NCBI GenBank assembly: GCA_902595725.1
Contig: CACJRJ010000009.1
Span: 1 to 52,330, forward strand
Length of the DNA stretch: 52,330 nt
Direction: 5' to 3'
Origin: an uncultured Pelagibacteraceae bacterium
Lineage (GTDB): Bacteria; Pseudomonadota; Alphaproteobacteria; Pelagibacterales; Pelagibacteraceae
Position 1 is the first letter of the stretch. Each line of letters begins with the position of its first letter. Below are positions 25,417 through 33,469 of this stretch, piece after piece. The notes under the pieces were generated by a model. That model had not been told where the DNA came from. It did not search any database and saw only the letters and a program-made list of their open reading frames with translations. The translations under genes and the position numbers were made by a program.

Positions 25417-26517
25417 ATGGGAAAGAATTATATAGCTTTAGGCTTAATGAGCGGAACTTCAATGGATGGAGTAGATGCTTCAATAATTAAATCAGACGGT
25501 AATAGAGTATATTCAATAATATTCGATGAATATTTTGAATATAAACAAGAGTTTTATAGTAAATTAATAAATATAAGGGATAAAATCTTAAGAAAAGATG
25601 ATTTAAAAACATATTTAGATGAAATACAGCTACTAGAAAGAGAAATTGCAATATTTCATGCGAATATTGTTAACGAAATCATAAAAAAATCAAAAACTGA
25701 AATTGATTTGGTAGGTTTTCATGGTCAAACAATATTTCATGACCCTAAAAATAAAATTACTAAACAATTGGGAGATGGAAATCTATTATCACAATTGACT
25801 AAAAAAATAGTTATTTATAACTTCAGACAAAATGATTTAAAAAATGGAGGTCAAGGTGCTCCACTAGCTTCAATTTACCATAAATTGTTAGCTCAAACTT
25901 TTAAAGAAGAAGGAAAAATTAAATTACCAATTATAATATTAAATATTGGTGGTATTGCAAATATTACATCTATAAACAAAAATTATGACATGATAAGTAT
26001 GGATATAGGTCCAGGCAATTGTTTAATAGATAAATGGATAAGAGTTAATTCTAATAAAAATTTTGATAATAATGGAGATATCGCAAAATCAGGGAAGATA
26101 GACAAATTTATTTTAGAACAAACAATAGATAATTTTTATTATAATGAAACTAGAAAAAATAAATCTCTTGATGTTAATGATTTTAATATTTCTTTTGCAA
26201 AAGGTCTTTCTTTAGAAGATGGAGCTGCAACAATAACAGAATTAACAGCAGATATTTTATCTAAAAAATTATCAGATAGTAATGTTTACGTCAGTGGAGG
26301 AGGGAGAAAAAATAAATTTTTAATTGATTCAATTCAAAAAAAAATAAAAAATAAAATTATTCAAATTGACGAACTTGATATAGATGGTAGTTTTATAGAG
26401 TCTCAAGCGTTCGGTTATCTTGCTATACGATCATATCTTGGATTACCTATTTCTTTTCCTGAAACTACTGGATGCAAAAAACCATGTACTGGTGGTGTAA
26501 TGATTAAAAATTTTTAA
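25417..26517 (+). CDS. anmK: Anhydro-N-acetylmuramic acid kinase
   Basis: This 366-residue enzyme of the sugar kinase/actin fold phosphorylates and opens 1,6-anhydro-MurNAc released during murein turnover, yielding MurNAc 6-phosphate. Marks are the N-terminal GLMSGTSMDGVDASII phosphate loop, VGFHGQTIFHDP, LNIGGIANIT and DIGPGNCLIDKW, and the late VYVSGGGRKN. It indicates some cell-wall recycling. The gene is divergent from tyrS and shares a TTAA stop overlap with the convergent hydrolase. Confidence 0.95.
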   Translation: MGKNYIALGLMSGTSMDGVDASIIKSDGNRVYSIIFDEYFEYKQEFYSKLINIRDKILRKDDLKTYLDEIQLLEREIAIFHANIVNEIIKKSKTEIDLVGFHGQTIFHDPKNKITKQLGDGNLLSQLTKKIVIYNFRQNDLKNGGQGAPLASIYHKLLAQTFKEEGKIKLPIIILNIGGIANITSINKNYDMISMDIGPGNCLIDKWIRVNSNKNFDNNGDIAKSGKIDKFILEQTIDNFYYNETRKNKSLDVNDFNISFAKGLSLEDGAATITELTADILSKKLSDSNVYVSGGGRKNKFLIDSIQKKIKNKIIQIDELDIDGSFIESQAFGYLAIRSYLGLPISFPETTGCKKPCTGGVMIKNF

Positions 26518-27170
26518 TATAGAGCAGACTCTTTTTTAATATATTTATTTAAGGACTTAATAAGCACTTGATCACTTTTTGAAAAAAAATGATTAGCTTC
26601 TGGTACTGCTTCAAATTCAACTTTAATTCCTTTCTGGGCACTTAGTCTTTTATTTAATTCATTAATATTACTAGCAGGCACTAGCTCATCTTTTTTTCCA
26701 TAGATCATCAAGCCTGAGGATGGACATGGAGATAAAAATGAAAAATCATAAACATTTGGTTGTGGAGAAATTGCTATGAATCTATTTATTTCAGGTCTTC
26801 TCATCAATAACTGCATCGATATTAAAGAACCAAAAGAAAATCCTGAAATCCAACATTGTGAATTATCAAAATTTTCTCTTTCTAGCCAATCAAGTGCAGC
26901 AGCAGCATCAGCAAGTTCACCTTGACCATTATCAAATTCTCCATCACTTTTTCCCACACCTCTGAAATTTACTCTGCAAACTGAAAAATCATTATCCATA
27001 AATACATGAAATGTATCAACAACTACTTTATTATTCATTGTTCCTCCATATTGAGGATGAGGATGAAGAACTAAAGCAATTGGAGAAGTATTTTTTTTAC
27101 TTTTATAATATTTTGCTTCAAGTCTTCCAGCTGGCCCAGGTATAAATATTTCTACTATTTTGCTATCCAT
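26514..27170 (-). CDS. Alpha/beta hydrolase fold protein
   Basis: This 218-residue protein is a compact alpha/beta hydrolase with oxyanion-hole segment LHPHPQYGGTM (about 35-45). The nucleophile elbow GFSFGS has S112, and the likely acid D161 (KKDELVP) and base H194 (EANHFF) complete a triad. A similar family (HPHPxxGGxM) is widespread in alphaproteobacteria beside other housekeeping genes, but its substrate is not known. There is no signal peptide, so it should be cytosolic. It is divergent from iscR across a 138-base spacer. Confidence 0.8.
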   Translation of the reverse strand: MDSKIVEIFIPGPAGRLEAKYYKSKKNTSPIALVLHPHPQYGGTMNNKVVVDTFHVFMDNDFSVCRVNFRGVGKSDGEFDNGQGELADAAAALDWLERENFDNSQCWISGFSFGSLISMQLLMRRPEINRFIAISPQPNVYDFSFLSPCPSSGLMIYGKKDELVPASNINELNKRLSAQKGIKVEFEAVPEANHFFSKSDQVLIKSLNKYIKKESALY

Positions 27171-27256
27171 AAAAGATATTGATAATTATTCTCAAAAAAA
27201 AATTACATTTTTCTATCAAAATTGAGCGACAAAAAGCAAGTCTTTAAATATGTTAT

Positions 27257-27281
27257 AATCTTGACTAAATTAGTCAGGTAT
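27257..27281 (+). promoter_or_regulatory. Putative IscR type 1 operator
   Basis: The 25 bases contain GACT, an A+T centre and AGTCAGGTAT. By eye they fit the E. coli IscR type 1 consensus (GACT-RWWWY-AGTC-RRS-TAT core) at every position from GACT onward; only two of the outer left positions differ. The site overlaps the -35 region of the iscR promoter, the layout of cluster-dependent autorepression in E. coli. Confidence 0.75.
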
Positions 27282-27288
27282 ATATAAA
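27261..27288 (+). promoter_or_regulatory. Predicted iscR-suf promoter
   Basis: A -35 element TTGACT (27261-27266) and a -10 element TATAAA (27283-27288) are separated by 16 bases. The ATG of iscR lies 20 bases after the -10 element, so the 5' leader would be very short. The operator overlies the -35 box and spacer. Confidence 0.7.
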
Positions 27289-27308
27289 GCGCGTGGATTG
27301 CGGAAAAT

Positions 27309-27731
27309 ATGAAATTATCAAGCAAAGGTAGATATGCAGTAATGGCACTTGCGGATCTTGCAAAGTTTGATCCTAGTGAGCCAGTTTCTCTTAGAGATAT
27401 ATCTTTAAGACAAGGCATATCATTAGTTTATTTAGAACAATTATTTTTAAAATTAAAAAAAAATAAAATTGTTACTAGCGTAAGAGGAAAAAAAGGAGGC
27501 TACACGCTAAATAAAAATGCATCTGAAATTAATATTTCAGAAGTACTTTCTGCAGTTGAAGAAAAAATAAAAACAGTAGGTTGTGAAAAGCATTCTAAAA
27601 AAGGATGTAATGGCAAAAGTGCAAAATGCATTACCCACAATTTATGGGATGAACTCGAAGATTATATTAATGTTTTTTTTGAAAAAAAAAAATTAAGTGA
27701 TCTTATAAACAAAAGAGATAACAGAATTTAA
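27309..27731 (+). CDS. iscR: Rrf2-family iron-sulfur regulator IscR
   Basis: This 140-residue winged-helix regulator begins MKLSSKGRYAVMALADLA, the standard Rrf2 start. Cluster ligands are C92, C100, C107 and H110, comparable to C92, C98, C104 and H107 of E. coli IscR, with slightly longer spacing. The recognition helix region includes SLVYLEQLFLKLKKN. It leads the suf genes and abuts sufB (stop TAA directly followed by ATG). Together with the operator this indicates feedback control by Fe-S status. A RirA-type iron regulator is an alternative name, but the operon position and operator favour IscR. Confidence 0.9.
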   Translation: MKLSSKGRYAVMALADLAKFDPSEPVSLRDISLRQGISLVYLEQLFLKLKKNKIVTSVRGKKGGYTLNKNASEINISEVLSAVEEKIKTVGCEKHSKKGCNGKSAKCITHNLWDELEDYINVFFEKKKLSDLINKRDNRI

Positions 27732-29168
27732 ATGAGAGAAAAACAAATTGATAAATTAAAAGATTACAAATATGGATTTACAACTGATATTGAAAATATC
27801 AGAGCACCCAAAGGCCTGAATAAAGAAGTTATTGAATTCATATCTAAAGCTAAGAAAGAACCAAAATGGATGCTTGATTGGAGAATGAAAGCTTTTGAAA
27901 GATTGAAAAATTTAAAGGAGCCAAATTGGCAAAAACCAAAATATCCAAAAATTGATTACCAGGATATTTATTATTATTCAGCTCCTAAAAGTGCGAGTGA
28001 AAAACCTAAAAGCATTGATGAACTTGATCCTAAACTTTTAGAAACTTATAAAAAACTAGGTATACCATTACAAGAACAGCAAAGATTAAATGGTATTGCT
28101 GTAGATGCAGTTTTTGACTCTGTTTCTGTAGCAACAACATTTAAAGACAAATTAAATGAAGTGGGAGTAATTTTTTGTTCAATTTCTGAGGCAATACAAA
28201 AGCATCCTGGACTTGTAAAAAAATATTTAGGATCTGTAATTCCTCTTACTGATCACTATTTTGCAACTTTAAACTCGGCTGTTTTTACAGACGGCTCTTT
28301 CGTTTATATTCCTTCAGGTGTTAAATGTCCGATGGAGCTATCTACATACTTTAGAATTAATGCTTCTCAAACAGGACAATTTGAAAGAACATTAATTATT
28401 GCAGATAAGGGAAGCTATGTAAGTTATCTAGAGGGCTGCACTGCTCCCATGAGAGATGAAAATCAACTTCATGCAGCAAACGTAGAACTAGTTGCTCTAG
28501 ACAATGCTGAAATTAAATATTCAACAGTACAAAATTGGTATCCTGGAGATGAAAATGGAAAAGGAGGAATTTATAATTTTGTAACTAAAAGAGGTTTATG
28601 CAAAGGAACAAATTCTAAGATTTCATGGACACAAGTAGAAACAGGATCGGCAATTACTTGGAAATATCCTAGCTGCATTCTCCAAGGGGATAATTCTATT
28701 GGAGAGTTTTATTCGATTGCAATTACAAACAATCATCAAAAAGCTGACACAGGAACAAAGATGATTCATTTAGGTAAAAACACAAAGAGTAAAATTATTT
28801 CAAAAGGAATTAGCGCAGGTTTTTCTGATATGACTTATAGAGGGTTAGTGGACATATCTTCTAAAGCTAAAAACTCGAGGAATTATACGCAATGTGACTC
28901 TTTACTTATGGGTAATAAATGTGGGGCTCATACTGTTCCTTATATTAAAAATAAAAATCCAGAATCTAATATAGCTCATGAAGCTACTACTTCTAAAATA
29001 AGTGAAGAACAACTTCATTATTGTCAACAGAGAGGTTTAAATCCTGAAGAAGCTGTAGGATTAATTGTTAATGGGTTTTGCAAAGAAGTCCTACAACAAT
29101 TGCCTATGGAGTTTGCCGTTGAAGCGCAGAAACTTGTAGGAATAAGCTTAGAAGGAAGTGTTGGTTAA
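27732..29168 (+). CDS. sufB: Fe-S cluster assembly scaffold SufB
   Basis: This 478-residue SufB subunit of the SufBC2D scaffold has the right-handed beta-helix core. SufB-typical stretches include [57 protein letters not shown] (split here as YLEGCTAP and QLHAANVE) and [17 protein letters not shown] with the cysteine thought to take part in cluster assembly. It follows iscR with no spacer and sits directly before sufC. No Shine-Dalgarno is visible at the junction, so coupling by re-initiation is likely. Confidence 0.97.
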
Positions 29169-29903
29169 ATGTTAAAAATAAAAAATTTGAAGGCTGATAT
29201 AGAAAATAAATCAATTTTAAATAACTTTAATCTTGAAATAAAACCAGGTGAGGTGCATGCGATAATGGGACCGAACGGATCAGGAAAAAGTACTTTATCT
29301 AATATTTTATCAGGAAAAAAAGGGTACGATGTTTCAGGAGAAATTTTATTTGAAAATAAAAATATTTTTGAACTTGAAACTGAAGAAAGAGCGCACAAAG
29401 GAATATTTTTAGCTTTTCAATATCCTTTAGAAATACCAGGAGTGAATACGAATATTTTTTTAAAAACATCACTTAATGCTATTAGAAAAGCCAGAGGAGA
29501 AAAAGAACTTGATGCAATAGAATTTTTAAAATTAGTAAAATTAAAAGCGAAAGAATTAAAATTTGATGAAGAAAAATTAAATAGACAATTAAATGTAGGA
29601 TTTTCTGGCGGTGAAAAAAAAAAAAATGAAATATTACAAATGTCTATTTTAAATCCAAAACTTTCAATTTTGGACGAGACTGATTCTGGTTTAGATATTG
29701 ATGCACTTAAAATTGTTGCTGATGGGGTAAACTCACTAAGAAAAAAAGATAATTCATTTTTAATAATTACACACTACCAAAGATTATTAGATTATATAAA
29801 ACCTGATTATGTTCATGTATTGATGAGTGGTAAAATAATTAAATCTGGAGGTCCAGAACTTGCATTAGAATTGGAAAAGAAAGGATATGAAAATTTTAAT
29901 TAA
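29169..29903 (+). CDS. sufC: Fe-S assembly ATPase SufC
   Basis: This 244-residue ABC-type ATPase energises the SufBCD scaffold. It has Walker A GPNGSGKST (about residues 34-42), a Q-loop in FLAFQYPLEIPG, the signature FSGGEKKKNEILQM and a Walker B/D-loop LSILDETDSGLDID that is diagnostic of SufC. H-loop: ITHYQRLLDYI. It abuts sufB and sufD without a spacer. Confidence 0.97.
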   Translation: MLKIKNLKADIENKSILNNFNLEIKPGEVHAIMGPNGSGKSTLSNILSGKKGYDVSGEILFENKNIFELETEERAHKGIFLAFQYPLEIPGVNTNIFLKTSLNAIRKARGEKELDAIEFLKLVKLKAKELKFDEEKLNRQLNVGFSGGEKKKNEILQMSILNPKLSILDETDSGLDIDALKIVADGVNSLRKKDNSFLIITHYQRLLDYIKPDYVHVLMSGKIIKSGGPELALELEKKGYENFN

Positions 29904-31151
29904 ATGGAAGAACAATTAAAAATAGATTTTGAAAAGTTATTAGAAACATCAAATTTTTCTAAAAAGAATGTTGAAATTAAAAGAAAAAATTTTGAAAATT
30001 TTATTGAAAAAGGGTTTCCCAACAGAAGAGAGGAAAACTGGAAATTTTCAGATCTTAATCAAATAATTTCTAAAAATATTAAAAATTTAAGTTTTTATAA
30101 CGATTTATCAAAGCCAAATAAAATAGATCAGTCCATTTTCATTGATGGTTTAGAACATAATAAACTTGTTTTTGTAAATGGTAGAATAGAAAAAATAGAG
30201 TTTGATTATGAAGAAAAAAATAAAATTGAAATATTAGATGATTTAGTTTTAGAAAAATCTAACAATGCCAATAATTCTTTACTTTTTTTGAATAATGCAT
30301 TTGTAAATAAATATTTTAAACTAATTGTCAAAAAAAACTATTCGCTTAAAAAACCTTTAGTTATTTACAATATTACCAATAAAGATTTGATTTCAAAAAG
30401 TATTAATTTAAAGGTTAATATATCTCTTGAAGAAAATAGTTCTTTAAAACTTATTGAATTTTTTAACGATAGATCAATTACTAATTTTATAAATATTAAT
30501 TATAACTTTGATATTCAAAAAAATTCTATCTTAAAAAATTATAAAATTGATAATAATTCAAATAGTAATATAAAATATTCTTTTAGTAATATTAATCAAG
30601 ATTCTAATAGTGTATCAGAAATATTTCTCCTATCGTCCGGATCAGAATTTATAAAAAATGAAATAAATTGTAATCTTAATGGAAAATATGCTTCAGCATT
30701 TGTGAATGGAGTTTTTATCTTAGATGAAACAAAGCATCATGAAATTAAAACTAATATAAATCATTTAGCTGAAAATACTAAAAGTTATCAATTAATCAAA
30801 GGTGTTTTAGAAGATACATCAAAAGCAGTTTATCAAGGAAAAATTTTTGTTGATTCAAAAGCTCAAAAAACAGACGGTTATCAATTAAGTAAAGCTATCT
30901 TATTAAATGACAATACAGAATTTAATGCCAAGCCAGAATTAGAAATTTATGCTGATGACGTTAAATGTTCTCACGGTTCTGCATCTGGAAGTTTGAATGA
31001 AGATTCAATATTTTATTTAATGTCTAGAGGATTAAATTATCAAGAAGCAAAAAAGCTTTTAATTAATGGTTTCCTATTAGATGTTGTTGAAAAAATTACA
31101 GATTCTGAAATAAAAAATTTAATAAAAAATATTATGAGCTTAAAACAATGA
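29904..31151 (+). CDS. sufD: Fe-S assembly protein SufD
   Basis: This 415-residue protein is homologous to SufB and forms the SufBCD complex. The N-terminus has GFPNRREENWKFSDLNQI, and the C-terminal beta-helix ends with the conserved CSHGSASGSLNEDSIFYLMSRG region (KCSHGSASG, LMSRGLNYQEA). The N-terminal half is divergent and Asn/Lys-rich. Its ATGA overlap with sufS implies translational coupling. Its role with SufB is iron entry and scaffold stability. Confidence 0.94.
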   Translation: MEEQLKIDFEKLLETSNFSKKNVEIKRKNFENFIEKGFPNRREENWKFSDLNQIISKNIKNLSFYNDLSKPNKIDQSIFIDGLEHNKLVFVNGRIEKIEFDYEEKNKIEILDDLVLEKSNNANNSLLFLNNAFVNKYFKLIVKKNYSLKKPLVIYNITNKDLISKSINLKVNISLEENSSLKLIEFFNDRSITNFININYNFDIQKNSILKNYKIDNNSNSNIKYSFSNINQDSNSVSEIFLLSSGSEFIKNEINCNLNGKYASAFVNGVFILDETKHHEIKTNINHLAENTKSYQLIKGVLEDTSKAVYQGKIFVDSKAQKTDGYQLSKAILLNDNTEFNAKPELEIYADDVKCSHGSASGSLNEDSIFYLMSRGLNYQEAKKLLINGFLLDVVEKITDSEIKNLIKNIMSLKQ

Positions 31152-32368
31152 ACATTAGTAATATAAAAAAAGAGTTTCCTATTTTTGATAATAAAGTTCA
31201 TAATAATGATCTTGTTTATTTAGACAGTGCTAATTCTTCTCAAAAACCAAGAGTAGTTGTTGATAGAATTTATGATTTTTATACTAAAGAATTTTCTAAC
31301 GTTGGAAGAAGTGTTCATTACCTTGCAGTCGCAGCAACAAATTTATATGAAAATACTAGAACTTCAGTTCAAAAATTTATTAATGCAAAAGATGCAAATG
31401 AAATTGTTTTTACCAAAGGAGCTACAGAAGCAATAAATTTAGTAGCAAGTACTTTTGGCCAAAATCATTTGGAAGAAGGTGATGAAGTTTTATTAACTGA
31501 GCTTGAACATCACTCAAACTATGTTCCTTGGCATTATTTAAGAAAATCCAAGGGTATTAAAATAGAGTTTGCAGAGATAAATGAAGATGGAGAAGTTACT
31601 TTAGAGAGTATAGAAAAAAAAATTACGCCAAAAACTAAAATTATAGGAGTAACTCATTTATCAAATGTTACTGGAGCTATTTTACCAATTAAAGAAATAG
31701 TTCAACTAGCTCACTCAAAAAATATACCAGTATTGGTAGATGGTTGTCAGGGAGCTCCACATTTAAAATTAGATATGCAAGACTTAGATTGTGATTTTTA
31801 TGCCATCTCATGTCATAAAATGTATGGACCAACAGGCTTAGGTATTCTTTATGCAAAAAAAAAATGGTTAGAGGAATTACCCCCGTACCAAGGTGGTGGA
31901 GGAATGATAGGTGAAGTCAAAAAAGAAGGCATAACCTACGGTGACTTGCCAAATAAATATGAAGCTGGAACAATGGCAACGGCACAAGTAATAGCATTTG
32001 ATGAGTCTATTAAATTTCTAAACAAAATAGGGATGGAGAACATCATTAAACATGAAAAAGAACTTATTGAATATGGTCAAGAGATATTAAGAAAAAATAA
32101 TTCTGTTAAATTAATTGGAAATCCAAAAAGAAAAGGATCAGTTCTATCCTTTACTATTGATGGAATACATCCCCATGATATAGCAACTATTTTAGATGAA
32201 GATGGCGTTGCCATAAGAGCCGGTCATCACTGTTGTCAAATATTACATGACAAACTTGATATAGCTGCTTCTGCAAGGGCATCATTAGGAGTTTATAATA
32301 CTAAGGATGATCTAGATAAACTGAATTCGTCAATTAATAAATGTAAAAAAATATTTGAACTAAAATGA
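31148..32368 (+). CDS. sufS: Cysteine desulfurase SufS
   Basis: This 406-residue PLP-dependent group II cysteine desulfurase supplies persulfide sulfur. The PLP lysine is K224 in SCHKMYGPTG and the catalytic cysteine is C362 in RAGHHCCQ; an extra cysteine C363 follows. The start YLDSANSSQKPRVVVD and LTELEHHSNYVPW are typical. It overlaps sufD and sufU by ATGA. No sufE is visible; SufU next door is the probable sulfur acceptor. Confidence 0.96.
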   Translation: MNISNIKKEFPIFDNKVHNNDLVYLDSANSSQKPRVVVDRIYDFYTKEFSNVGRSVHYLAVAATNLYENTRTSVQKFINAKDANEIVFTKGATEAINLVASTFGQNHLEEGDEVLLTELEHHSNYVPWHYLRKSKGIKIEFAEINEDGEVTLESIEKKITPKTKIIGVTHLSNVTGAILPIKEIVQLAHSKNIPVLVDGCQGAPHLKLDMQDLDCDFYAISCHKMYGPTGLGILYAKKKWLEELPPYQGGGGMIGEVKKEGITYGDLPNKYEAGTMATAQVIAFDESIKFLNKIGMENIIKHEKELIEYGQEILRKNNSVKLIGNPKRKGSVLSFTIDGIHPHDIATILDEDGVAIRAGHHCCQILHDKLDIAASARASLGVYNTKDDLDKLNSSINKCKKIFELK

Positions 32369-32838
32369 ACTTAAAAGAACTTTACCAAGAAATAATTTTA
32401 GATCACGGAAAAAATCCTAGAAATTTAAGAAAAACAGAAAATTTTAATAAAGATGCAAAAGGACACAACCCTTTATGTGGTGATAAGGTTCATATTTTTT
32501 TAAAGCTAAATGATAATAAAAGATTAGAAGATATTTCATTTGAAGGTCAAGGCTGTGCAATTTCAATGGCTTCGGCATCAATAATGACTGATTTGCTAAA
32601 AGGAAAAGAAGAAAAAGAAGTAAAAGAAATTGTAAATGATTTTTTAGAAATGATTAAAGAAAAAGATGAAATTAAAACAAACCTTTTGAAAGAAGATGAA
32701 AAAACTAAATTAATGTGTTTATCAGGAGTAAAACAATATCCAATGAGAGTTAAATGTGCAACACTATCTTGGCACACATTGACATCAGCTATAGATAAGT
32801 CTCAAAATGAAATTAATAGTGAAAGCTTGGAGGTATAA
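32365..32838 (+). CDS. sufU: SufU-type sulfur acceptor / IscU-like protein
   Basis: This 157-residue IscU-fold protein has ligands C38, D40, C64 and C131 (NPLCGD, GQGCAIS, RVKCATLSW). There is an additional segment of about 20 residues between C64 and C131 that marks SufU rather than IscU. In Gram-positive bacteria SufU binds zinc and accepts persulfide from SufS. An extra cysteine C118 (MCLSG) lies in the insertion end. It lies directly after sufS, replacing SufE in this operon. Start overlaps sufS (ATGA), end overlaps sufT (TAATG). Confidence 0.92.
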   Translation: MNLKELYQEIILDHGKNPRNLRKTENFNKDAKGHNPLCGDKVHIFLKLNDNKRLEDISFEGQGCAISMASASIMTDLLKGKEEKEVKEIVNDFLEMIKEKDEIKTNLLKEDEKTKLMCLSGVKQYPMRVKCATLSWHTLTSAIDKSQNEINSESLEV

Positions 32839-33137
32839 TGGAATTAAAAGATAAAGTTATTGCTGAAATAAAAAAGATCTATGATCCAGAAATACCAGTT
32901 AATATTTATGAGTTAGGCTTAATATATGATATAATTATTGATGATAAGAATAATGTTAAAATTGATATGACTTTAACTTCACCTAACTGTCCGGTAGCTG
33001 AAAGTTTGCCTAATGAAGTAAAAAACAGTGTTAAAGAAATTAAAGAAGTAAAGAATGTTGATTTAAATTTAGTATGGGACCCTCCGTGGGATAAATCAAT
33101 GATGACAGAGTCTGCAAAATTAGAATTAAATTTATGA
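32838..33137 (+). CDS. sufT: SufT / MIP18-family (DUF59) Fe-S maturation protein
   Basis: This 99-residue DUF59 protein has the hallmark KIYDPEIPVNIYELGLIYDI start, the LTSPNCPVAESLP loop with its conserved cysteine, and a closing LVWDPPWDKSMMTESAK. SufT proteins assist maturation of Fe-S proteins under high demand in other bacteria. Position between sufU and sufA supports that role. Overlaps sufA by 4 bases. Confidence 0.93.
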   Translation: MELKDKVIAEIKKIYDPEIPVNIYELGLIYDIIIDDKNNVKIDMTLTSPNCPVAESLPNEVKNSVKEIKEVKNVDLNLVWDPPWDKSMMTESAKLELNL

Positions 33138-33469
33138 TGAAACAAATAATTACATTAAGTGATAATGCTGCTCAAAGAATAAAAGAAATTATGTCAAAAG
33201 CAGAAAGTAACGCTGTTGGTGTAAGAGTAGGTGTTAAGTCTGGTGGTTGTGCAGGCATGTCTTATATAATGGAATATACACAGGAAATTAATCCAAATGA
33301 TGAAATAATTGAGGAAAAAGGGGTAAAACTTTTTGTAGATCCAGGCGCTATAATGTACCTTTTAGGAACCGAAATGGACTATAAAAAAGAAGAATTTTCC
33401 TCATCTTTTGTCTTTAAAAATCCAAACGAAACTGAAAGATGTGGATGTGGAGAATCATTTAAGATATAA
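33134..33469 (+). CDS. sufA: A-type Fe-S carrier SufA
   Basis: This 111-residue A-type carrier delivers clusters from the scaffold to target proteins. Its three conserved cysteines are C39 (SGGCAGMSY), C103 and C105 (ERCGCGESF). There are two possible adjacent ATG starts, at 33134 and 33137. As the last recognised suf gene it completes iscR-sufBCDSUTA. IscA or ErpA are alternative names for similar proteins; operon position favours SufA. Confidence 0.93.
   Translation: MMKQIITLSDNAAQRIKEIMSKAESNAVGVRVGVKSGGCAGMSYIMEYTQEINPNDEIIEEKGVKLFVDPGAIMYLLGTEMDYKKEEFSSSFVFKNPNETERCGCGESFKI

Follow-up and report, generated by a model that had tools for sequence, protein, structure and literature searches.

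A predicted IscR type 1-like operator overlapping the iscR-suf promoter of SAR11 bacteria

The iscR-suf locus

The window analysed here is a whole stretch of 52,330 nucleotides from an uncultured member of the Pelagibacteraceae, and the genome assembly that it belongs to holds 1,081,352 bases in 43 contigs and is 84% complete. SAR11 bacteria are very abundant in the iron-scarce surface ocean and have small genomes with few regulators. In the window, a gene of the Rrf2 family heads an operon with the order iscR-sufB-sufC-sufD-sufS-sufU-SUF_assoc-sufA, and a hydrolase gene is read away from it on the other strand (Table 1). The SufE models gave no match among the nine downstream frames that were scanned. 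The gene equivalent to sufU bears the label sufE in Ca. P. ubique (excerpt of PMC2864753). No iscS lies between iscR and sufB (27731-27732).

Table 1. Features of the iscR-suf locus, with positions counted along the window
Feature	Position	Strand	Remarks
Alpha/beta hydrolase gene	26514..27170	-	divergent, conserved neighbour
Fur-like box TTGATAATTATTCTCAA	27179..27195		between divergent hydrolase gene and iscR promoter
IscR type 1-like operator, 25-mer AATCTTGACTAAATTAGTCAGGTAT	27257..27281	+	23/25 to type 1 consensus
-35 hexamer TTGACT	27261..27266	+	part of operator left arm; TTGAC in 101/101 loci of the window's family
Right arm AGTCAGGTAT	27272..27281	+	inside 16-nt promoter spacer
-10 hexamer TATAAA	27283..27288	+	16 nt from -35
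iscR	27309..27731	+	Rrf2 family; ligands C92, C100, C107, H110; E43
iscR codon 40	27426-27428		S replaced in all loci of the window's family
sufB	27732..29168	+	NF008773 887 bits, cut-off 717
sufC	29169..29903	+	TIGR01978 357.3 bits, cut-off 212.8
sufD	29904..31151	+	TIGR01981 234.8 bits, cut-off 222
sufS, cysteine desulfurase	31148..32368	+	TIGR01979 543.8 bits, cut-off 475.1
sufU	32365..32838	+	TIGR01994 160.9 bits, cut-off 92.5
SUF-associated protein, PaaD-like	32838..33137	+	TIGR02945 148.8 bits, cut-off 143.4
sufA/IscA-like carrier	33134..33469	+	TIGR00049 above cut-off; TIGR01997 132.1, just below 136.2

The models for HscB (TIGR00714) and IscU (TIGR01999) reached their cut-offs in none of ten SAR11 genomes; both cut-offs are strict, each being reached in only one of 14 control genomes. 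Weaker matches were found for HscB in six of the ten genomes (best E-value 3.6e-5) and for IscU in all ten, the window's own weak match being its sufU. With these two models and ten genomes, SUF was the only assembly system detected in SAR11. An earlier note on this DNA had proposed that one regulator leads a suf operon from a type 1-like site and that suf takes the housekeeping place of isc. The operon is indeed led by iscR, and the second proposal fits because neither IscU nor HscB reached its cut-off.

The equivalent operon of Ca. P. ubique, SAR11_0738-0745, has the same gene order as that of the window. Its genes are labelled sufA (the regulator), sufB, sufC, sufD, csdB, NifU-like 'sufE', paaD and hesB, and their mRNA was up 1.76 to 2.44-fold 24 h after iron chelation (excerpt of PMC2864753). 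In the same excerpt no rise of the sufA-E proteins is reported despite the rise in suf mRNA. The mRNA response under iron limitation fits derepression; it does not name the regulator.

The predicted operator and its promoter

Positions 27257-27288 read AATCTTGACTAAATTAGTCAGGTATATATAAA, as in the earlier note, which had described a palindrome there matching the IscR type 1 consensus from GACT onward. The consensus used for comparison, ATASYYGACTRWWWYAGTCRRSTAT, was defined in E. coli and reportedly goes back to Giel and colleagues in 2006. When tried on the iscR promoter of E. coli K-12, it found two best sites with 24 and 22 of 25 positions. The 25-mer of the window misses this consensus at two positions only, both in the outer left arm, and the phrase "from GACT onward" is therefore exact.

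With up to three mismatches to the 25-nt consensus the window contains one match, against a mean of 0.01 in 100 dinucleotide shuffles, of which one gave a single match. The 21-base core is likewise matched once in the window and in none of the shuffles. In the whole genome (84% complete) the operator is the only match to the 21-nt core at up to three mismatches. A chance match was ruled out by this uniqueness within the window and by the 0.01 expected in shuffles. The bare inverted repeat is unremarkable: its 15-nt arms are 80% complementary, and a stretch of 301 AT-rich bases contains 32 inverted pairs, this one included. What is improbable about the operator is its specific letters and not the dyad.

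The operator overlies the -35 hexamer and the spacer of the predicted promoter ahead of iscR-suf. The left arm contains the -35 and the right arm sits in the spacer, in agreement with the overlap with TTGACT/TATAAA that had been noted before. A strict promoter scan made no call at 27257-27288, because the scan demands a T at position 6 of the -10 hexamer. If transcription begins 7 nt past the -10, the start would be expected near 27295, with a leader of about 13 nt.

The iscR-iscSUA promoter of E. coli K-12 has the same class of dyad, and its proximal site, ATAGTTGACCAATTTACTCGGGAAT, carries TTGACC at the same offset as TTGACT in SAR11. In E. coli, isc is preceded by two sites at a distance of 25 nt from each other, and suf forms an operon of its own (excerpt of PMC11475020); SAR11 has a single site, and it precedes suf. 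A further conserved block, GCGACAAAAAGCAAGTC, is present at 27226-27242. It was considered as a degenerate second type 1 site, some 25 nt ahead of the first as in E. coli, but its GCGACAA has, by eye, the wrong half-site spacing, and it was not called a site. The reverse strand of the block has TTGTCG, by eye a possible -35 for the divergent hydrolase gene.

Conservation within SAR11

In total 110 iscR loci were collected. Thirty came from the window's own genome and 60 relatives (iscR was present in 43 of these 61 genomes), and the others were the best 80 of 527 in a named collection, titled Pelagibacteraceae, Pelagibacterales or Ca. Pelagibacter and all counted as members of the window's family (f1). 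The f1 loci numbered 104, and after three exact duplicates were dropped 101 distinct loci remained. Conservation of the palindrome in related SAR11 genomes, which had been named in advance as a test, was found throughout: the operator precedes iscR in all 101 loci, beginning 45-56 nt ahead of the iscR start. The scores out of 25 were 25 in three loci, 24 in 22, 23 in 64, 22 in nine and 21 in three.

Invariant in these operators are CTTGAC, T18, the GT at 22-23 and T25, while positions 12-14 alternate between A and T. The -10 hexamer at the same spacing is TATAAA in 52 loci, TATATA in 29, TATAAG in 16 and another in four. The dyad pair that varies most is T-A in 73 loci, C-A in 22, C-G in four and T-G in two. 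There is little covariation between the arms, so covariation is weak evidence here. In some f1 sites the right arm is damaged, with ACTATGG (L017, L075, L081) or AGTATGG (L018, L082) among the instances.

Of the parts compared, the left arm had the lowest mean column entropy (0.24 bits), followed by the right arm (0.30) and the -10 hexamer (0.34); the DNA between the boxes (0.78) and the leader (1.29) had higher values. The spacer is almost as conserved as the -35, which is not what a mere promoter would give. These values bear on the alternative that the locus has only a strong conserved promoter and that the dyad is a by-product of TTGACT in AT-rich DNA. TTGACT and TATAAA are indeed promoter elements, the left arm coincides with the -35, and windows over the Fur-like box and over the hydrolase gene (27142-27143) show a conservation similar to that of the right arm. 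However, the right arm is held nearly as tightly as the left although it lies in the spacer, the dyad agrees with the E. coli consensus where chance would give 0.01 matches, and a related genus that keeps suf has neither the dyad nor iscR (see below). Plain promoter conservation without an operator was set aside on the right-arm entropy and these absences, and we consider it highly improbable.

Changed gene order and apparent loss of the regulator

In the sister family (f2) the gene order is cysE-iscR-sufB, as read in L111 and L112. The cysE product scores 213.0 bits with TIGR01172 (cut-off 210.65), the same divergent hydrolase gene flanks the locus, and by eye the next gene is also the same. 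In the six f2 loci, the 200 nt that precede iscR contain nothing that scores above 16 of 25. All six have the operator before cysE, 761-770 nt upstream of iscR, with 22-24 of 25 positions. The operator stays at the front of the operon when the gene order changes.

In the f2 loci (L025-L030, L111, L112) cysE, which encodes serine acetyltransferase, lies behind the operator and ahead of iscR. A single IscR-type promoter may therefore serve both cysteine supply and cluster assembly in this family.

In one genus of the window's own family (g5) an IscR match was absent in all eight genomes at an E-value of 0.001; two of the eight are single contigs of 99-100% completeness. A sufB match was present in five of the eight, always beside the same hydrolase gene and without iscR, and the other three genomes had no sufB match. 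Within the 1500 nt examined at each of the five sufB loci, the best type 1 site scored 16-17 of 25, a level also seen on the wrong strands. The operator therefore occurs with iscR (101 of 101 f1 loci) and not without it (0 of 5 g5 sufB loci). The loci lacking both are L176 and L178-L182, in G143 and its relatives. The genus appears to have lost both operator and regulator while retaining suf. The absences in g5 probably represent a single evolutionary event, and the genus offers a natural loss case for the IscR circuit.

The IscR protein and the proposed circuit

The IscR of the window scores 127.1 bits with the Pfam Rrf2 model (cut-off 30), and its best matches among solved structures are E. 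coli IscR. With TIGR02010, its best-scoring family, it reaches 163.6 bits and falls short of the curated cut-off of 207.55, which is a naming threshold and not a biological feature. The same cut-off is missed by an f2 IscR (158.9) and by another alphaproteobacterial IscR (175.1). Equivalents of C92, C98, C104, H107, E43 and Q44 are present in all 101 f1 and all six f2 proteins; that of R59 is present in all 101 f1 proteins and in two of the six from f2. E43 bars apo-IscR from type 1 DNA.

S40 is listed among the IscR residues for type 2 DNA binding (excerpt of PMC11475020). It is a residue of the recognition helix and does not define the family. The 101 f1 proteins have V (45), D (36), L (19) or N (1) at position 40, and S in none. 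S40 is found in five of the six f2 proteins and in 24 of 28 loci from the wider class sample described below, the remainder of which have A, T, T and P. The literature titles searched included no structural paper on S40.

These observations argue that the palindrome is an IscR type 1 operator over the iscR-suf promoter, through which holo-IscR represses its own operon; we put the probability of this reading at about 0.85. When Fe-S clusters are sufficient, [2Fe-2S] IscR would bind the operator, cover the -35 and the spacer and repress iscR-sufBCDSU. When clusters or iron run short, apo-IscR would leave and the operon would be derepressed. The homeostatic loop that governs isc in E. coli would thus govern suf in SAR11, since SUF is the only assembly system detected there. 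The reading starts from a site that is conserved, occupies the front of the operon in both gene orders, is absent where the regulator is absent and is accompanied by conserved cluster ligands; from these we infer binding, repression and cluster dependence. The earlier note was right on the sequence, and its interpretation is supported as far as sequence goes. An operator over the only Fe-S assembly operon detected suggests a concrete, testable circuit that would match cluster supply to iron, and such a circuit could explain why suf mRNA has been reported to rise when iron is limiting.

A variant of this explanation is that SAR11 IscR binds in both cluster states, or as apo-IscR, so that the site would look like type 1 without functioning as such. 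Cluster dependence is unreadable from sequence, and Rhodobacter IscR represses its promoter P3 in both iron states (excerpt of PMC6956336). The letters of the SAR11 site are nevertheless of the type 1 class, E43 is present in all 101 f1 proteins, and S40, listed among the type 2 contacts (excerpt of PMC11475020), is replaced in all of them. Binding in both states therefore seems to us quite unlikely, and type 1 repression by holo-IscR is retained.

The Fur-like box

The locus also contains a Fur-like box that the earlier note overlooked and that could also account for iron control. The element resembles the Fur box dyad TGATAATNATTATCA. The box lies 65 bp upstream of the -35 hexamer. A pattern built from these same loci, TTGATWATNATTMTCAA, was matched at 14 or more of 17 positions in 99 of the 101 f1 loci, against 4.7 of 101 in shuffles. 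Of 21 genomes, 16 yielded a locus with an iron-binding-protein gene, and in all 16 a Fur-like box with at least 15 of 17 positions lies no more than 200 nt ahead of that gene; these 16 upstream regions are independent of the pattern building. That protein matches periplasmic iron-binding proteins of known structure. Two f2 genomes have a Fur-like box before rubrerythrin. Outside the iscR region, four of 16 Fur-like places in nine genomes were at such iron genes and most of the others were inside reading frames. The element at 27179-27195 is probably a SAR11 Fur box.

Fur could accordingly be imagined as the main iron switch, with Fe-Fur at this box controlling iscR-suf and the palindrome serving as a minor autoregulatory site. 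Besides the occurrence of the box before iron genes, it speaks for such a role that Ca. P. ubique, which has genes for Fur and Irr, induces genes of the kinds sfuC, rbr and suf when iron is limiting (excerpt of PMC2864753). However, the box suits the hydrolase gene better than suf, because its centre lies 17 bp upstream of the hydrolase start codon but about 108 bp ahead of the point where iscR transcription is expected to begin; it may still contribute to the control of suf. It is also missing in L015 and L020, where the palindrome stays, and no hit with at most one mismatch was found at the f2 operon front in G037-G039. Control by Fur and control by IscR can also act side by side, which is the case for the suf operon of E. 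coli (PMC8593673). We hold control mainly by Fur to be unlikely, and IscR acting at the palindrome remains the preferred reading.

Size of the IscR regulon

Ten SAR11 genomes were searched for the 21-nt site with up to three mismatches, and nine had a match. The genome without one (G038) has a diverged site at the operon front (L025). Beyond the operon fronts and their other-strand readings only three places were found, one in G004 and two in G037; a control in which the site was read backward gave one hit in G004 and four in G037.

With up to two mismatches the 21-nt site was present in 129 of 149 genomes of the genus that are at least 80% complete. Among the 20 without such a match, G009 and G033 also lacked a sufB match and G025 has a diverged site (L017). 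The search of the 149 genomes brought 27 new loci, of which 25 have an adjoining iscR, one (L206) is at a contig end beside the hydrolase gene and one (L207) is unrelated. From among the matches listed, 17 two-mismatch places were examined: five were iscR promoters and 12 were in reading frames or over their ends. Two of the 17 repeat loci already counted (L242 is L183 and L230 is L207), and two-mismatch places in G305 and G267 are outside the 17. Among the listed type 1 matches that were examined, none marked a second promoter with a good site.

A tentative scenario, to which we give somewhat less than even odds, is that streamlining in Pelagibacter turned IscR, once a global regulator with two motifs, into a dedicated autorepressor that acts on one promoter and through type 1 DNA only, and that g5 then lost regulator and operator, leaving suf without IscR control. 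The first part of this scenario is suggested because S40 is replaced in every f1 protein and kept in five of six from f2, and because no second promoter was found.

The operator in the wider Alphaproteobacteria

A class sample of 192 alphaproteobacterial genomes was drawn evenly, and 104 of them had an IscR match at an E-value of 1e-15. The loci examined were the 29 best-matching ones besides the window, one of which is from SAR11. A looser core, CTTGACYNNNNYASTCRG, was present at 17 or more of 18 positions within 1500 nt upstream in 21 of the 29 (20 of 28 without SAR11), as against 0.05 of 29 expected from block shuffles; this count, like that for the Fur-like box, leans to its pattern, because both patterns were written after some of the counted sequences had been seen. 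Eight of the 28 loci scored 14-16 of 18, mostly the chance level, as shuffles commonly reach 14-15. Given 20 of 28 loci against 0.05 expected of 29, the operator looks class-wide. A cysE match is ahead of iscR in nine of the 29 loci, so the order cysE-iscR is widespread.

For R. sphaeroides, a previous bioinformatic study had placed IscR sites ahead of iscR, as in SAR11, together with Irr sites (excerpt of PMC6956336); we take it to be the work of Rodionov et al. 2006, with its site predictions for alpha-proteobacteria. According to the same excerpt, R. sphaeroides IscR binds a P3 promoter fragment that holds GACTATTTCTGTCGG. In C. crescentus and other Alphaproteobacteria a single iscR-led isc-suf operon is mainly under IscR (excerpt of PMC11475020). 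The operons of C. crescentus and R. sphaeroides are thus, like that of SAR11, single, iscR-led and IscR-controlled (excerpts of PMC11475020 and PMC6956336), the control in SAR11 being predicted. The operator is therefore ordinary for the class, in which IscR-controlled iscR-led suf operons are already published.

There are also differences. The order in Caulobacter and Rhodobacter is iscRS-suf (excerpt of PMC11475020), whereas the window operon has no iscS after iscR. Rhodobacter IscR lacks the Cys3 ligands (excerpt of PMC4618611), but SAR11 IscR keeps them. The type I motif from ChIP-seq in C. crescentus, as given in the excerpt of PMC11475020, does not resemble the SAR11 operator. The SAR11 operon further differs from those of Caulobacter and Rhodobacter by its predicted leader, of 12-17 nt in 99 of the 101 f1 loci. 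The literature titles searched included no work on SAR11 IscR; the 'iscr' matches in PMC13271415 are the name of a reagent, and PMC5069961 contains nothing on suf.

The SAR11 site joins the known type 1-like operators on alphaproteobacterial iscR-suf operons, and the comparative support for it is unusually strong. Two points were less to be expected: in Pelagibacter, S40 is replaced and the regulon apparently consists of a single promoter, and in g5 regulator and operator are missing together. For other members of the class, the looser core may be of use in searches for iscR-suf promoters.
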